Shown here: positions 11,980 through 39,947 of the stretch, piece after piece
Layout: every line of letters starts with the position of its first letter
Position numbering within the stretch: the stretch's first letter is position 1
NCBI GenBank assembly: GCA_021825925.1
Contig: JAKAFP010000004.1
Location: 124,001-188,000 of the forward strand
Direction of reading: 5' to 3'
DNA length: 64,000 nt
DNA from: Chloroflexota bacterium
GTDB taxonomy: Bacteria; Chloroflexota; Anaerolineae; Anaerolineales; Anaerolineaceae
The notes under the pieces: model-generated
What the model saw: only the letters and a program-made list of their open reading frames with translations
Told to the model about the DNA's origin: nothing
The model's database searches: none
Program-made: the position numbers and the translations under genes

Positions 11980-12491
11980 GAGGTTTTTCCTGTTTTTGAT
12001 TCTTTAGATTTCTTTAAAGAAAAAATAGCTGCCACAACAGCCAATATTCCAAGCAGCACCCCGCGGATAAACAACATGTTGGATCCCACCCGGAGTTTTC
12101 CGATCATGAAGGGATGTAGGTTACCGCAGGGAACAGAACAGCGAAAGCGAAACATGCCAGGCCTGGAAGCCACAAAAGTCCCTGTTACGGGCTGACCAGG
12201 ATCCGATGTAAGTTGAAAATCATACCCATCGATGGAGATTCCATGAACCACATCCGTGGAGACGAATTCGATTGTTACTCGGTCGCCCTGGTTGACCTTT
12301 ATTTCTGCAGGTGTGAACTGAAAACTGGTGGCGTCAATATGGATCACTCGATCTGTTGGCTTGGGAGTCGCCAATGGTATTGGTACAAAAAGGATCAATA
12401 AAGCACAAAGACTGATAAATACCATCAACCGCCATTTTGATTGTAGAGGTTGATGGTTTAGGTTTTCTTGAGTGGACAAGAGTTCCTCCAT
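11976..12491 (-). CDS. Membrane-anchored cupredoxin with CuA-like site
   Basis: This 171-residue protein has an N-terminal TM (about 22-40), a cupredoxin domain, and a second TM near 135-158 with a Lys/Ser-rich tail, which is unusual for a subunit II-like protein. Ligands are His83 in DVVHGISI, and Cys118, Cys122, His126 and Met129 in CSVPCGNLHPFM. It is a second, distinct copy of the CuA-type fold found in 10261-10647. It starts on the last base of the PCYCGC gene stop (TAATG) and overlaps the polyferredoxin start. A role as electron-carrying partner of the polyferredoxin is inferred. Confidence 0.87.
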   Translation of the reverse strand: MEELLSTQENLNHQPLQSKWRLMVFISLCALLILFVPIPLATPKPTDRVIHIDATSFQFTPAEIKVNQGDRVTIEFVSTDVVHGISIDGYDFQLTSDPGQPVTGTFVASRPGMFRFRCSVPCGNLHPFMIGKLRVGSNMLFIRGVLLGILAVVAAIFSLKKSKESKTGKTS

Positions 12492-32777: not shown

Positions 32778-33182
32778 TTAATCTTCGATTTGTGTTAATA
32801 ATTTTTGAAAAGAGGTCGTGCCGTAATTGATGGTTTTAGGCTCGCCCTTTTTATCCAATAAAACGGTCGTGGGAACGGTTAAGATGCCCCACTGCGAGGC
32901 AAGCTCCGGATTCTCATAGGCATTGATCTCAACAACCACCAGGTCGTTGTGCAGATAGTTTTTCAACTGCTGCAAAGCTGGTGCTTGCGCGGTTTTGCAG
33001 GCCACACAATCAGGGGTTGAAAAATAGACTATGATGTTTTTCGCAGGATTATCCAGTATGAACTTGCCACTATTCTTTGATACTTTATTCAACGACCAAC
33101 GCTTGATCAATATAAAGAAAAGTAGAAAGAATAACGATAATCCAATCGCAATAAACGGACGGGCTGGTTCAAATTGGAACAT
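32778..33182 (-). CDS. Membrane-anchored thioredoxin-like protein
   Basis: This 134-residue protein has an N-terminal TM (about 9-26) and a thioredoxin fold with CxxC in [13 protein letters not shown] near residue 62, and cis-Pro in [10 protein letters not shown]. The domain is shorter than standard TlpA. It lies 11 bases upstream of pdxS and 53 bases after the DUF4395 gene. Thioredoxin/DUF4395 pairs are common in bacteria and are linked to sulfur or thiol redox reactions outside the cytoplasm. Confidence 0.82.
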
Positions 33183-33235
33183 GTTATTTGCCTTTCAGGC
33201 TTATCCCCGGAAAAGCCCCACTTGGCACTGATTTT

Positions 33236-33667
33236 TTAAATCCGGGCACCTTTAGCTTGTTCAGCCAGTAGTAAACCGCGCAGCCCGCGCAAAACCCCGC
33301 GGAACAAGTTCACTGCCGCCAAAACGATCACCACCCAAGCCAGCGTCCAGCCCAGGGTGCTTGCTCCCAACCACAAGGCTACGGCTGCACCAGACGCAAC
33401 AATTCCACCGAACCCTTGTGCGAATTGGTGCGGTTCAGGGTTATCTGCAAAAAAGTCTGATTTCACCCATTTCCACGGTCGAAAAGCAGCCGTATAGAGA
33501 AACCCAAAACCAGGTTTCTTGAGAATGGTTCCCAGGATCATCGCAAAAGCCACCACTGATACCAGCCAGGGGGTGTTCAAAATAAACGACAGCAACAGCA
33601 AAACGATGATCGTTGCCTGGTTGGTGCTGAGCGGTGCGTGATCAATTTGTTTTAATTCATCTGACAT
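33236..33667 (-). CDS. DUF4395-family membrane protein
   Basis: This 143-residue protein has about four TM helices. The segments FILNTPWLVSVVAFAMILGT, FFADNPEPHQFAQGFGG and FRGVLRGLRGLLLAEQAKGARI match DUF4395, a family of unknown function. It is translated from a GGAGG site and is followed by a thioredoxin-like gene, a recurrent arrangement. Possibly an electron or thiol transfer partner. Confidence 0.8.
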   Translation of the reverse strand: MSDELKQIDHAPLSTNQATIIVLLLLSFILNTPWLVSVVAFAMILGTILKKPGFGFLYTAAFRPWKWVKSDFFADNPEPHQFAQGFGGIVASGAAVALWLGASTLGWTLAWVVIVLAAVNLFRGVLRGLRGLLLAEQAKGARI

Positions 33668-33698
33668 TTCAAAACCTCCAATTGTTTTATTTTTAAGG

Positions 33699-33770
33699 AG
33701 TCCATAGCGAGAATCGAACCCGCGGATAACGGTTTTGCAGACCGTCGCCTTTCCACTTGGCTATATGGAC
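33699..33770 (-). tRNA. tRNA-Cys (GCA)
   Basis: On the minus strand the sequence folds as a cloverleaf with acceptor arms GTCCATA/TATGGAC, anticodon loop CTGCAAA giving GCA, T loop GTTCGAATC and a discriminator U, which is diagnostic for Cys tRNA. CCA is not encoded. It sits ahead of the sulfur amino acid genes. Confidence 0.95.
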
Positions 33771-33834: not shown

Positions 33835-35151
<1,317 letters not shown>

Positions 35152-35230: not shown

Positions 35231-36169
35231 TCACAACCGCGTAGTTGCATATTGGTTGAATTGAATGATTTCGTAGGGCGTTTCTTGATACACACAATAG
35301 TTGATCCAATTGGCGAATAGCAAATTTGAATGTCCTCGCCAACGTACAACCGGAGACTTGCCCGGATTGTTTTCAGTGAAATAGTTTGCCGGGATTGCGG
35401 TTGGCAATCCAGCAGCCAGATTACTTTCATATTCATTTTTCAAAGTCAAAGTATCGTATTCAGGCTGACCAGTGATAAACACCTGCCGGTTGAGCGGACT
35501 TTCAACAATATAAACGCCGGCTTTCTTTGATTCCGCCAGAATTCGTAAGTCGCGTACTTTTTCAATATCTGAACGGCGAACCTCAGTCTGGTGTGAATGA
35601 GGGGCATAGAAAGTGTCATCAAAACCGCGCAATAAATCGACATCCTGGGCAACGACTTGATGTTTGTACACACCAAACTGCTTTACTTCAGACGAAACCT
35701 TAGGCACTCCAAAATGATGGAATAAAGCCGCCTGAGCACTCCATCCCAGGTATAGACGGGCAAAAACATGATTGATACTCCAGTTGAGAAAAGCTTTAAG
35801 CTCCTCCCAATACTCCACTTGTTCAAAAGCCAGGTGTTCAACCGGTGCGCCTGTGATGATCAAGCCATCAAAGTATTCACGGCCAATCTGATCGAACTTC
35901 TGATAAAAATTCCAGAGATGTTCAGCCGGCGTCTCCTTGCTTTGGTAAGTACTGGTGCGTAAAAGGGTAATTTCAATCTGCAAAGAAGTGTTGCCCAACA
36001 AACGGAGCAATTGAGTCTCAGTCGCAATTTTTAAAGGTGCAAGGTTCAAGATGGCAATTTTTAACGGACGAATGTCTTGATGAATGGCACGTTCATCGTC
36101 CATGACAAAGATGTGTTCGGCTTTGAGAACTTCGTACGCCGGTAATTTTTCTGGTATTTTTATTGGCAT
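35231..36169 (-). CDS. MetA homologue lacking catalytic Cys and His
   Basis: This 312-residue protein aligns closely with homoserine O-acyltransferase MetA (about 300 residues; start MPIKIPEKLPAYEVL, then IRPLKIAILNLAPLK). However, at the positions numbered as in E. coli the catalytic residues are changed: Cys142 is Gly (LYLGWSAQA, where MetA has ICWGAQA) and His235 is Gln (FITGQPEYD, where MetA has TGHPEYD). Glu237 is kept. The DNA codons GGA and CAG are unambiguous. The enzyme is therefore unlikely to acylate homoserine by the known mechanism. It is nevertheless the first gene of the SAM-I-controlled operon, directly before metY. Either it is a pseudoenzyme partner or a different chemistry is used. 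Confidence 0.88.
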   Translation of the reverse strand: MPIKIPEKLPAYEVLKAEHIFVMDDERAIHQDIRPLKIAILNLAPLKIATETQLLRLLGNTSLQIEITLLRTSTYQSKETPAEHLWNFYQKFDQIGREYFDGLIITGAPVEHLAFEQVEYWEELKAFLNWSINHVFARLYLGWSAQAALFHHFGVPKVSSEVKQFGVYKHQVVAQDVDLLRGFDDTFYAPHSHQTEVRRSDIEKVRDLRILAESKKAGVYIVESPLNRQVFITGQPEYDTLTLKNEYESNLAAGLPTAIPANYFTENNPGKSPVVRWRGHSNLLFANWINYCVYQETPYEIIQFNQYATTRL

Positions 36170-36196: not shown

Positions 36197-36230
36197 AAAA
36201 AAAACCTCTTCTATAAGATAAGAAGAGGCC
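36197..36230 (-). terminator. Terminator of the SAM-I riboswitch
   Basis: CCTCTTCT pairs with AGAAGAGG and a run of eight T residues follows on the minus strand, between riboswitch and metA. It is the expected expression platform. Confidence 0.88.
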
Positions 36231-36245
36231 AAATTAGTGTTGATC

Positions 36246-36351
36246 TCCTCTCATCTTCCAGATCACTTCTGCCGGATTTGGCACCTTGTTCGCTTGAACA
36301 GGTTGTCGAGGCTTCATCGGGCCGGTCCCTCTGCCTCTCTGGATAAGAGTG
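36246..36351 (-). ncRNA. SAM-I (S-box) riboswitch
   Basis: The minus strand shows the S-box consensus: P1 arms CTCTTATCCAGAG and GATGAGAG, GAGGGACCGGCCCGATGAAGCC for the core, and GGTGCCAAATCCGGCAG for P3-P4. It binds S-adenosylmethionine and then favours the terminator at 36197-36230. It controls the metA homologue and metY. Confidence 0.95.
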
Positions 36352-36381: not shown

Positions 36382-36418
36382 AAAATAAAAAAAAGCCCGG
36401 GAGCAAATCCCGGGCTTT
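36382..36418 (-). terminator. Attenuator terminator between leader peptide and SAM-I riboswitch
   Basis: AAAGCCCGGGA pairs with TCCCGGGCTTT (11 bp, 5-base loop), followed on the minus strand by eight or more T residues. It lies 70 nt after the leader peptide stop. The intervening segment also forms a CTGCTCC/GGAGCAG hairpin (36434-36462). Confidence 0.85.
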
Positions 36419-36487
36419 CATCTTTCATTTGGGCTGCTCCATCAAAATACTTTCAGGAGCAGATCACTTTCTATTTTGGCTTATTGA

Positions 36488-36592
36488 TTATCTCAATGAG
36501 TAAAGGTATGCCAAAGAAGGTGCAGAAGCTCCTCGCTTTTTACACATACACATACACATCATTTTTGTCGCGCCAAAATTTGTTGAAGTCAT
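36488..36592 (-). CDS. Met/Cys-run leader peptide of the metA-metY unit
   Basis: This is a 34-codon reading frame with a start at 36592 (GGA five bases upstream) and TAA at 36488-36490. It contains KMMCMCMCKKRGASAPS: four Met and three Cys codons alternating in a run of seven. It is followed by the terminator at 36382-36418. The layout is that of an attenuation leader that senses charged Met/Cys tRNA. It shares an MxSTxFG opening and RGxSxP end with the leader at 42820-42906. Confidence 0.8.
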   Translation of the reverse strand: MTSTNFGATKMMCMCMCKKRGASAPSLAYLYSLR

Positions 36593-36620
36593 TTTTTCCG
36601 TATCCATTTCTTAGTTGAAG

Positions 36621-36649
36621 AGTCTACGCTTTTTAAAAACGAATGTCAA
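36621..36649 (-). promoter_or_regulatory. Promoter of the metA-metY leader
   Basis: TTGACA at 36644-36649 and TAGACT at 36621-36626, separated by 17 nt on the minus strand. Transcription would begin about 22 nt before the leader peptide ATG. Confidence 0.8.
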
Positions 36650-36818: not shown

Positions 36819-36847
36819 TTGACAAATCTTTTTGTGTTGTTTATTAT
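36819..36847 (+). promoter_or_regulatory. Promoter of the metQNI unit
   Basis: TTGACA at 36819-36824 and TATTAT at 36842-36847 with 17 nt between. The predicted start (about 36853-36855) falls on the A of the leader peptide ATG, so the leader mRNA appears leaderless. Confidence 0.75.
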
Positions 36848-36854
36848 CATGCAC

Positions 36855-36953
36855 ATGATAAATCAACTCGGCAAGTCACAGATCTGTATGTGTTCATGTA
36901 TGATGCTTTTGCGATGGAGTTCTCCTCTACCGCTAGTACATGAATTTGACTAG
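36855..36953 (+). CDS. Met/Cys-run leader peptide of the metQNI unit
   Basis: This is a 32-codon reading frame ending TAG at 36951-36953. It contains QICMCSCMMLLRWSSPLP with three Cys and three Met codons in a cluster, followed 88 nt downstream by a strong terminator (37041-37079). An ATG two codons upstream (36849) lies before the predicted transcription start, so 36855 is preferred, without a ribosome site. The cluster and the R-x-S-S-x-L-P tail resemble those of the other two leaders. Attenuation by Met/Cys supply is inferred. Confidence 0.75.
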   Translation: MINQLGKSQICMCSCMMLLRWSSPLPLVHEFD

Positions 36954-37040
36954 TCGCTAAAGATTTGAGCCCATCGCTTCCTGATTCAAAATAGGATGGC
37001 ACGGTGGGCAAACAGCTCAACAAGCGCTTGTAGATAATCT

Positions 37041-37079
37041 CAGCGCCACCAGACATCCTGGTGGCGCTGTTTTATTTTT
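37041..37079 (+). terminator. Attenuator terminator ahead of metQ
   Basis: CAGCGCCACCA pairs with TGGTGGCGCTG (11 bp, 7-base loop), followed by TTTTATTTTT. It lies 42 nt before the metQ start. A GGTGGGC segment near 36999 could pair with GCGCCACC as an alternative structure. Confidence 0.88.
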
Positions 37080-37120: not shown

Positions 37121-38068
37121 ATGAAAAACACAGTTCGTAATAACACATTGTTTAGCCGCACTCAGCATGCGGCTGGTCACAAAGCAACCGTGACAGGTAT
37201 TTTGATTTTGGCAGTTCTGGTCGTATTAACCTTCGTCCTCTCGGCTTGCTCCACTGCCGCTGCAACCCCGACCGAAGCCGCTGCAACTGTTGCAGCCACC
37301 GAAGCAGCCACGGCTGTCGCCACTGCTGAACCTACCAAGGAGCCGATTAAGATCAAGGTTGGTGTTTCACCTGTTCCCCATGGAGATATCATCAATTTCG
37401 TCAAAGAAAATCTTGCTGCCGCCGCCGGTTTGGATATCGAAGTGGTTGAATTCACAGATTACGTCCAACCCAACCTGGCTTTAGCCGCTGGTGAAATTGA
37501 CGCCAATTTCTTCCAACACGTTCCGTATTTGACCGATTTCAACAAGGAACATAACCTCGAATTGGTCTCTGTCGCCGCCATCCATATTGAACCTCTTGGC
37601 ATTTTTTCCTCCAAGATCAAATCACTGGATGAAATCACCGATGGCGCAGTCGTTGCCATCCCTAATGACGCCACCAATGCCGGTCGTGCCCTAAGCCTGC
37701 TCGCCGCAAATGGTTTGATCACCCTCAAAGACGGTGTGGGTGTTTCAGGCACTGTTGCAGATATTGTGACCAATCCCAAAAATCTCGACATCAAAGAACT
37801 CGAAGCTGCCCAGCTTGTGCGCTCATTGGAAGATACCACTATCTCAGTCATCAACGGTAACTACGCCCTTGAAGGTGGCTTATCTCCCGCCAAGGATGCA
37901 CTGGCTCTTGAAAGCGCCGAGAACAATCCCTATGCCAACGTCCTCGTGGTAAACAAGGGTCATGAGAATGATGAGGGTGTCCAAATCTTGATCAAGCTGC
38001 TCACTTCACCAGAAGTCAAGAAATTCATCGAAGAAAAGTACAGCGGTTCAGTAATTCCGGCGTTCTAA
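37121..38068 (+). CDS. metQ: Methionine ABC transporter, substrate-binding lipoprotein (NlpA/MetQ family)
   Basis: This 315-residue lipoprotein, start MKNTVRNNTLF (GGAGAAGAAA upstream), has a signal peptide ending FVLSAC (lipobox). A low-complexity Ala/Thr/Glu linker follows (TPTEAAATVAATEAATAVA). The binding domain starts IKVGVSPVPHGDII and contains VVEFTDYVQPNLALAAGEIDAN and FFQHVPYLTDFN, typical NlpA/MetQ signatures. It is followed by metN and metI. Its transcript opens with a Met/Cys leader and terminator. Confidence 0.94.
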   Translation: MKNTVRNNTLFSRTQHAAGHKATVTGILILAVLVVLTFVLSACSTAAATPTEAAATVAATEAATAVATAEPTKEPIKIKVGVSPVPHGDIINFVKENLAAAAGLDIEVVEFTDYVQPNLALAAGEIDANFFQHVPYLTDFNKEHNLELVSVAAIHIEPLGIFSSKIKSLDEITDGAVVAIPNDATNAGRALSLLAANGLITLKDGVGVSGTVADIVTNPKNLDIKELEAAQLVRSLEDTTISVINGNYALEGGLSPAKDALALESAENNPYANVLVVNKGHENDEGVQILIKLLTSPEVKKFIEEKYSGSVIPAF

Positions 38069-38313: not shown

Positions 38314-39291
38314 ATGATTTCGATTTCGAACCTCAGAAAGACCTATGACCAAACGCAACAAGTCGTCCACGCCCTGGATGGCGTTTCACTGCACGTTTCA
38401 CCCGGTGAAATTTTCGGCGTGGTGGGTTCCAGCGGCGCCGGAAAGAGCACATTGATCCGCTGCGTCAACCTGCTTGAGCGTCCGACTTCCGGGTCCATTG
38501 TTGTCAATGGACAGAATATGAATTCACTCTCTACTCAAGAATTACGCATCGCGCGCCAAAAGATTGGTATGATCTTTCAACAATTCAATTTATTGAGTTC
38601 CCGTACTGTTGCCGGTAACATCGCCTTCCCGCTTGAGATTATCGGCTTAGACAAAGCTGAAAAAGAAAACAAGGTCAACGAGTTACTCGCATTGGTCGGA
38701 CTGAGCGATAAGGCGAACGTCTACCCTGCCCAACTTTCAGGCGGACAGAAGCAGCGTGTGGGTATTGCCCGGGCGCTGGCCACCGATCCAAAAGTGTTGT
38801 TATCGGATGAAGCCACCTCGGCTTTGGATCCGCAAACCACCGCTTCGATCTTGAACCTGCTGAAAGAATTGAACCAGCGTTTGGGGCTAACCATTCTCTT
38901 GATCACGCATGAAATGGAAGTGGTCAAACAAATTTGCGACCATGTTGCTGTTCTTGAAGACGGAAAAATTGTGGAGGAAGGTGCACTGGCTGACCTGGTG
39001 GTTCGTCCTCACAGCTTGATATCCAATGCCCTTTTTCCAGCCACTGAAGTCAGATTATCCAAACCCGGAATTACCAGCGCAACCATCACCTTTATCGGTG
39101 AAGCCGCGGATCAACCTGTTCTGGCAGGATTGGTCAAGAACTTTGATGTTGAGGTCAATATCCTCAGCGGCAGCATCCAGAACATCAGCGGTCGCCGAAT
39201 AGGTAGACTGCAGATCGATTTATCGGGTGTACAGGTGAACCACGCCATCGGTTATTTGCGCGGTCTTGGCGTGAACGTGGAGGTGAACTAA
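38314..39291 (+). CDS. metN: Methionine ABC transporter, ATP-binding protein
   Basis: This 325-residue ATPase has Walker A VVGSSGAGKSTLI, signature LSGGQKQRVGIARAL, Walker B VLLSDEATSALD, and H-loop LLITHEMEVV. The C-terminal 80 residues form an NIL domain (from about 245; TFIGEAADQPVLAGLVKNF), which senses Met and inhibits transport in MetNI. The start ATG at 38314 has a weak ribosome site. The metI start overlaps its stop. Confidence 0.95.
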   Translation: MISISNLRKTYDQTQQVVHALDGVSLHVSPGEIFGVVGSSGAGKSTLIRCVNLLERPTSGSIVVNGQNMNSLSTQELRIARQKIGMIFQQFNLLSSRTVAGNIAFPLEIIGLDKAEKENKVNELLALVGLSDKANVYPAQLSGGQKQRVGIARALATDPKVLLSDEATSALDPQTTASILNLLKELNQRLGLTILLITHEMEVVKQICDHVAVLEDGKIVEEGALADLVVRPHSLISNALFPATEVRLSKPGITSATITFIGEAADQPVLAGLVKNFDVEVNILSGSIQNISGRRIGRLQIDLSGVQVNHAIGYLRGLGVNVEVN

Positions 39292-39947
39292 TGGACTGGT
39301 CAGTTTGGGTGCCAAATTTATTGAAAGGAACTTCTGAGACTTTATACATGGTCGGAGTCTCCACCCTGTTTACCCTGGTGATAGGGCTTCCTTTGGGGGT
39401 CTTGCTGGTGATCACTGACAAAAAGGGATTGCTGGCTTTGCCTGTTTTTAATCAAATTCTGGGAGTTGTAGTTAATATTCTGCGTTCGCTGCCCTTTATC
39501 ATCCTGCTTGTGGTGATCATCCCCTTTACGAGGCTGATCGTGGGCACCACCATCGGCTCAACCGCTGCCATTGTTCCGCTCTCGATTGCCGCCATTCCTT
39601 TCTTTGCCAGGGTGGCCGAGACAGGATTGCGTGAAGTGGACCGCGGCCTGGTCGAAGCGGCACAAGCCATGGGTTGTTCCACCTGGCAGATCATTTACAA
39701 GGTGCTAATCCCGGAAGCGTTTCCGTCATTGATCTTGGGAACTGCACTAACCATCATCAGCCTGATCAGCTATTCCGCGATGGCTGGCGCCATTGGCGGG
39801 GGCGGATTGGGCGATCTGGCAATCCGTTATGGATACCAGCGCTTCGAAACGGAAATTATGATTGCCACCGTGGTCTTGCTCATTCTGCTGGTGCAGGGCA
39901 TCCAGTTCCTGGGGAATAAATTGGCGCTAAAATTATCAAAAAGGTAG
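39291..39947 (+). CDS. metI: Methionine ABC transporter, permease
   Basis: This 218-residue permease has five TM helices and the EAA-type loop EAAQAMGCSTWQIIYKVLIPEA near residue 120. It begins MDWSVWVPNLLKGTSETLYMVG, typical of MetI. It overlaps metN by one base and completes metQNI, which imports methionine. Confidence 0.95.
   Translation: MDWSVWVPNLLKGTSETLYMVGVSTLFTLVIGLPLGVLLVITDKKGLLALPVFNQILGVVVNILRSLPFIILLVVIIPFTRLIVGTTIGSTAAIVPLSIAAIPFFARVAETGLREVDRGLVEAAQAMGCSTWQIIYKVLIPEAFPSLILGTALTIISLISYSAMAGAIGGGGLGDLAIRYGYQRFETEIMIATVVLLILLVQGIQFLGNKLALKLSKR

Follow-up and report, generated by a model that had tools for sequence, protein, structure and literature searches.

A putative Met/Cys-codon leader peptide attenuator in series with a SAM-I riboswitch upstream of metA-metY in an Anaerolineaceae bacterium

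The metA-metY operon of this Chloroflexota bacterium is preceded on the minus strand by a short open reading frame with consecutive Met and Cys codons, an intrinsic terminator (T1), and a SAM-I riboswitch followed by a terminator of its own (T2). The first part of this arrangement is interpreted here as a transcription attenuator that is controlled by the ribosome through the Met and Cys codons of its leader and acts in series with SAM-I, a reading that is considered probable (about 0.82). The frame, its codon run, the RNA segments, both terminators, the riboswitch and the conservation of these elements were observed directly in the window (the whole 64-kb stretch of DNA analyzed) and in related genomes, while switching, translation and the response to starvation are inferred in the absence of expression or ribosome data.

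Organization of the metA-metY leader

An earlier note on this DNA had described a 34-codon frame containing KMMCMCMCKK, a G+C-rich terminator, a SAM-I riboswitch with its own terminator, and metA-metY. Each of these was found where the note had placed it, and the region is laid out as follows.

36621-36649, minus strand: σ70-like promoter of the metA leader (TTGACA-17-TAGACT), identified by motif and with a counterpart at the same place in relatives
36488-36592, minus strand: leader peptide frame of 34 codons, MTSTNFGATKMMCMCMCKKRGASAPSLAYLYSLR, with its ATG at 36592 and TAA at 36490-36488
36542-36562, minus strand: regulatory codon run Met-Met-Cys-Met-Cys-Met-Cys within KMMCMCMCKK, identified by translation, chance test and comparison
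36519-36533, minus strand: RNA segment 1 (AGGAGCTTCTGCACC), right after the codon run; partner, segment 2
36455-36468, minus strand: RNA segment 2 (AGTGATCTGCTCCT); partner, segment 1 or segment 3
36434-36440, minus strand: RNA segment 3 (GGAGCAG); partner, segment 2 or 4′ within the terminator
36391-36419, minus strand: intrinsic terminator T1, a 12-bp G+C-rich stem and a T run
36405-36400, minus strand: 4′ (TGCTCC), in the loop and 3′ arm of T1
36248-36349, minus strand: SAM-I riboswitch aptamer (RF00162, 86.5 bits, E 4e-19)
36203-36230, minus strand: T2, terminator of the SAM-I expression platform
35231-36169, minus strand: metA, homoserine O-acyltransferase (PF04204, E 2e-123)
33835-35136, minus strand: metY, O-acetylhomoserine/O-acetylserine sulfhydrylase (TIGR01326, 670.7 bits against a cut-off of 495.1)
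33697-33770, minus strand: tRNA-Cys (anticodon GCA), 64 nt downstream of metY

The promoter counterparts in relatives read TTGACT/TTGACA-17-TAATAT/TATAAA. The start of the leader frame is homologous to that of the relatives (MTTRLEVTRMM...); an in-frame ATG further upstream, at 36607, would lengthen the frame from 34 to 39 codons, and the Shine-Dalgarno sequence in the window is weak. Two features that define an attenuator, a short frame with codons for amino acids of the pathway and an intrinsic terminator ahead of the first gene, are both present. Assignment of the riboswitch rests on an RF00162 score well above the gathering score and on the presence of an expression platform, from which SAM binding and termination are inferred.

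Neither a promoter nor a T-run terminator was found between metY and tRNA-Cys, and the hairpin that precedes the tRNA gene lacks a T run; tRNA-Cys is possibly part of the metY transcript. A tRNA-Cys gene also follows metY in genome G002, and one lies just before SAM-I/metA in G108 and just before metQ in G017; none occurs in this position at the copies in G001, G010 and G013 or at a second metA-metY copy in the genome studied here. The MetY family also makes cysteine; this property and the neighboring tRNA gene are both consistent with a leader that monitors Cys in addition to Met. Behind tRNA-Cys (32778-33667, minus strand), a small membrane-type protein and a thioredoxin-like protein were recognized by eye and possibly belong to the same operon.

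Met/Cys codons in leaders of sulfur amino acid genes

Among all seven-residue stretches in the six frames of the window, only two contain at least five Met or Cys residues, one in the metA leader (7/7) and the other in the leader of the divergent metQ operon (6/7). Markov-1 shuffles of the window (n = 30) gave 0.53 such stretches per shuffle and none with six or more, and the part of the metA leader from segment 1 to T1 had a folding z of -3.6 relative to dinucleotide shuffles. Since the metA codon run doubles as a 6-nt repeat (3.2 copies, 36541-36559, Tandem Repeats Finder), the window by itself does not prove selection on the codons, and the run could be viewed as a chance microsatellite in an untranslated leader in which only T1 and SAM-I matter. 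The proof is supplied by relatives, whose runs are not repetitive (VMCMMC, AMCMLC, MMMCMCMAM, MMLMSMDM) yet lie in open frames at the same place; the metQ leader, moreover, carries a Met/Cys run of its own. A microsatellite origin is accordingly hardly credible.

Comparison of 16 genomes of the genus showed that all six SAM-I loci adjoining metA-metY, from five genomes, have a Met/Cys run and T1, and no comparable leader was found at the other SAM-I loci of these 16 genomes. The earlier note had called for a search for a conserved frame upstream of metA/metY S-boxes and had held that its idea would be refuted if homologues kept the terminator but lost the Met/Cys codons; in these six homologous loci the frame was found and the codons are kept. 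Their order varies and their Met/Cys content is maintained: the runs read MMCMCMC in the window, MMDMCMMC in the second copy on the same contig, MMVMCMMC in three genomes and MGMCMMCM in G002. Two subtypes of metA leader differ in the reading frame of the codons with respect to a conserved downstream segment, AAGCGAGGAGCTT, and in one of them the stop codon falls inside this segment. The second copy in the genome studied here (L010, G000:C2:300628-303729) encodes a MetA 66% identical to that of the window and has its own Met/Cys leader and SAM-I.

In other genera of the family, metA leaders consist mostly of Met runs without SAM-I (MMMAMVMC, MMLMVM, MMLMSMDM, MSMDM, MHMGMC). A leader (MAMAM), T1 and SAM-I stand in tandem in one genome of another genus (G061), and in further genera SAM-I is kept and the leader is absent. 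The leader is thus not tied to S-boxes, several relatives having it without SAM-I.

Both divergent methionine operons of the window carry a Met/Cys leader, that of the metQNI operon without SAM-I:

36819-36847, plus strand: promoter of the metQ leader (TTGACA-17-TATTAT)
36855-36953, plus strand: second leader peptide MINQLGKSQICMCSCMMLLRWSSPLPLVHEFD (MINQLGKSQICMCSCMMLLRWSS...), with CMCSCMM at 36885-36905
36911-36917, plus strand: segment 1 (GCGATGG), 8 nt past the last regulatory ATG
36969-36977, plus strand: segment 2 (GCCCATCGC)
37003-37009, plus strand: segment 3 (GGTGGGC)
37041-37069, plus strand: intrinsic terminator of the metQ leader
37121-38068, plus strand: metQ, methionine ABC transporter lipoprotein
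38314-39291 and 39291-39947: metN and metI, downstream of metQ

Leaders of this type were present in eight genera, and in 14 of 14 a distance of exactly 8 nt separates the last regulatory ATG from the start of segment 1. In the window (36849-36857, plus strand) and several relatives the metQ leader seems nearly leaderless, its ATG lying about 6-7 nt past the -10 hexamer; in the window the ATG at 36855 follows this hexamer by 7 nt.

Covariance models of the metA type (R1) and metQ type (R2), which span segment 1 to the terminator and exclude the codons, were used to search the family and other families of the class. Nine new leaders were obtained, each with an open frame just upstream that has 3-8 Met/Cys per 10 codons. 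New leaders precede, among other genes, cysK (L169, L171, L237, L238) and sulfite-reductase-type genes (L160, L162, L165); the runs include MCMCMAM, MMMCMCMAM, CMCRCSC and MMYQCSC before cysK, CMCMC and MCMCCIC before sulfite-reductase-type genes, and MMAMCMLC and MLCMCLC in G002. A later model added a Cys-only leader (L276, STCICR), downstream of which the start of the gene resembles sulfite-reductase genes. Gene identity is based on Pfam or NCBIfam for L160, L171 and L238 and on N-terminal sequence resemblance only for L162, L165, L169, L237 and L276. Matches of similar E-value without codon runs, when inspected, lay in or beside unrelated genes.

Weak matches that lacked Met/Cys runs and fell within other genes or at their ends were taken as chance (L161, L163, L164, L166, L170, L172-L179, L183, L184, L239, L254-L258, L261, L262, L277), and the weak matches L180-L182, L185-L193, L259, L260 and L264-L266 were left out of the inspection. 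Two more Met/Cys leaders were noticed at L267 (G002:C207; 9266-9399, minus strand, and 12094-12259, plus strand), one of them about 430 nt upstream of an unexpected target, a GPH-type sugar transporter, and the other near the contig end with its gene out of view. At L268 (G030:C17:255000-260500) the order is leader-cysK-SAM-I-metA-metY, with the Met/Cys attenuator at the head of the entire operon and SAM-I positioned internally, after cysK and before metA.

An alternative role for the peptide, arrest of its own nascent chain in response to free Met, Cys or SAM instead of tRNA charging, might be suggested by the Met-x-(R/Q/L)-R-W sequence with which metQ leaders repeatedly end. The R-W, however, is merely what segment 1 encodes (CGATGG/CGGTGG), the codons used for it covary with the partner strand of the RNA helix, and the metA, metQ, cysK and sulfite-reductase leaders share no peptide motif beyond their Met/Cys content, all of which makes peptide arrest very improbable.

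Alternative helices, ribosome position and serial termination

Leaders of the metA family contain segments 1 (GGAGC...), 2 (...GCTCC), 3 (GGAGC...) and 4′ (GCTCC in the terminator), which could form the helices 1:2, 2:3 and 3:4′. The mutually exclusive helices with covariation that are expected of an attenuator were recovered for 1:2 plus terminator, where 14 of 21 pairs had changed on both sides and none of 500 shuffles matched the paired percentage or the covariation score; support for 1:2 was lost when its partner was slid by 1-3 columns. Corresponding values for the metQ family were 7 of 15 pairs and again 0/500 shuffles for either measure. Both alignments were fitted to the structure and hence favor it. 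Support for a hand-set 2:3 helix was weaker (12/500 shuffles reached the observed value), and 3:4′ (GGAGC:GCTCC) is paired in 16/16 but nearly invariant, without double changes.

According to the mechanism proposed from these elements, segments 1 and 2 would form a helix immediately past the codon run that could be melted only by a ribosome that had cleared this run. A shortage of charged Met-tRNA or Cys-tRNA would stall the ribosome and preserve 1:2; segment 3, left free, would pair with the GCTCC of the terminator and let RNA polymerase pass T1 (ON). With good charging the ribosome would reach the stop codon, 2:3 and T1 would form and transcription would end (OFF). Polymerase that had passed T1 would then meet SAM-I and terminate there when SAM is high. 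Overall, the operon would be ON solely when low charging of Met- or Cys-tRNA coincides with low SAM. A leader of this kind, with no SAM-I behind it, would govern the divergent metQNI uptake operon.

Pair probabilities were computed for the moment just after transcription of 4′. The ribosome was placed on the regulatory codons in turn or on the stop codon, its leading edge was taken to be at A+8 or at A+12, and pairing of segment 1 across a terminating ribosome was assumed to be impossible. Mean P(3:4′) for stalled versus terminating ribosomes was 0.78 versus 0.20 at A+8 and 0.72 versus 0.12 at A+12, and it was higher under stalling in nine of ten leaders whichever edge was assumed. A stalled ribosome was predicted to give 1:2 and 3:4′, and a ribosome at the stop codon 2:3 with the terminator free. 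For the window leader the stop-state P(3:4′) was still 0.79 at A+8 and fell to 0.10 at A+12; the contrast is therefore clear only with the larger footprint. L111 showed a weak contrast and L108 no switch. The metQ leaders mostly behaved like the metA leaders, though not in every case or at every stall position: several formed the antiterminator only at some stall positions, and three at none. Two Met-run leaders of simpler design before metA (L105 and L121) are the least ambiguous: after the run they have a segment 1 that complements the 5′ arm of the terminator, and because of this a strong antiterminator is predicted to persist while the ribosome is stalled but not once it has reached the stop codon. 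At full length the predicted antiterminator beats the terminator in L105 but not in L121. The shared polarity in the folding models is that stalling gives read-through. The 7-8 nt that separate the last Met codon from segment 1 agree with the reach over which ribosomes generally unwind the helices ahead of them.

A real attenuator might nevertheless have the opposite or a different polarity. In metQ leaders and several metA leaders no more than 7-8 nt separate the last Met codon from segment 1; a ribosome stalled at that codon would cover segment 1, 2:3 would form and T1 would terminate, and read-through would have to come from free translation or another cue. With a 12-nt footprint, a stall at the last codon did partly mask segment 1 and lower 3:4′ (to 0.14 in L100, and also in L106, L107 and L111). 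At the earlier codons of the run, however, a stalled ribosome leaves segment 1 uncovered in nearly all leaders, L105 and L121 permit only a stall that favors the antiterminator, and it would make little sense for starvation to shut off methionine synthesis and uptake. A reversed polarity is for these reasons held to be unlikely, and stalling is retained as the condition for read-through.

If one transcript carries both regulators, polymerase must read through both T1 and T2 for metA-metY to be expressed. Such series action would not exist if a second promoter between T1 and SAM-I placed them on separate transcripts, and the spacer in the window does hold a lone perfect TTGACA. Its -10 is poor (3/6 match), however, no conserved promoter was found across the spacers of the tandem loci, the six others included, and these spacers measure merely 29-92 nt in the seven tandem loci, so that separate transcripts seem decidedly unlikely. 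Two serial termination decisions that integrate tRNA charging and SAM, as the earlier note had suggested, thus gain support from the kept codons, the covarying alternative helices and the lack of a conserved intervening promoter, with function remaining an inference.

Relation to known regulators and implications

Tandems of a Met T box and SAM-I with the same logic have already been published (PMC9481103). They resemble the present arrangement in their A AND NOT B logic and in placing a sensor of tRNA-Met charging, with its own terminator, in series with SAM-I ahead of methionine genes; the sensor there is an RNA that binds uncharged tRNA-Met, and here it would be a translated leader that also reads Cys codons. 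No T box was detected at the Rfam gathering score anywhere in the window, and the metA leader does not qualify as a Met T box. Leader families of Rfam (Trp, His, Leu and similar) were likewise not found above the gathering score in the window, only SAM and tRNA. A plain SAM-I (S-box) leader has the same RF00162 match and terminator, but here an independent attenuator precedes them in the same leader.

Like the classical attenuators (trp, his, leu, phe, thr), the metA and metQ leaders combine a short frame with regulatory codons, alternative helices and an intrinsic terminator before biosynthetic or uptake genes. They differ in that a single run represents two amino acids, segment 3 does not supply an arm of the terminator, and one more helix is interposed; because of the latter two differences, 2:3 would here favor termination and 1:2 read-through. 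A simple trp-like polarity with 2:3 as antiterminator was dropped, segment 3 being no part of the terminator.

In Actinobacteria, Cys-run leaders occur before cysteine and sulfur genes, with runs near the stop codon and no conserved terminator hairpins (PMC1262725), and Cys-rich small upstream ORFs have been reported in mycobacteria (PMC4633059). Frames with Cys codons before cysteine and sulfur genes, and leaderless small ORFs, are common to these systems and the present one, but the metA leader does not meet the definition of the actinobacterial Cys leaders: an intrinsic terminator with alternative pairing follows it, and Met is read as well.

A claim that nothing similar is known needs to be narrowed. 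The T box-Met/SAM-I tandems provide a precedent for the logic; in the open-access literature, subscription papers being outside the search, neither a methionine leader peptide nor any leader peptide for this lineage was found, and none with Met(/Cys) codons ahead of an S-box. A Met(/Cys) leader peptide that serves as a charging sensor in series with SAM-I therefore appears to be undescribed in the literature searched.

More broadly, the leaders may represent a lineage-wide family of sulfur amino acid attenuators (metA, metQNI, cysK and sulfite-reductase operons) with joint sensing of Met and Cys charging, a three-step helix relay and SAM-I in series in at least two genera, in which the operon described here may even carry the sensed tRNA-Cys; this wider picture is offered at even odds. 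With Met and Cys codons read jointly, the supply of two connected amino acids would be signalled by a single ribosome, and at the seemingly near-leaderless metQ leader initiation itself may depend on fMet-tRNA. The searchable models provided, and a clean test case for transcription control by two inputs, accompany the proposal. A leader peptide would here do the job of the T box, in series with the same SAM-I riboswitch, and leader-peptide attenuation would extend to a lineage in which little of it has been described.
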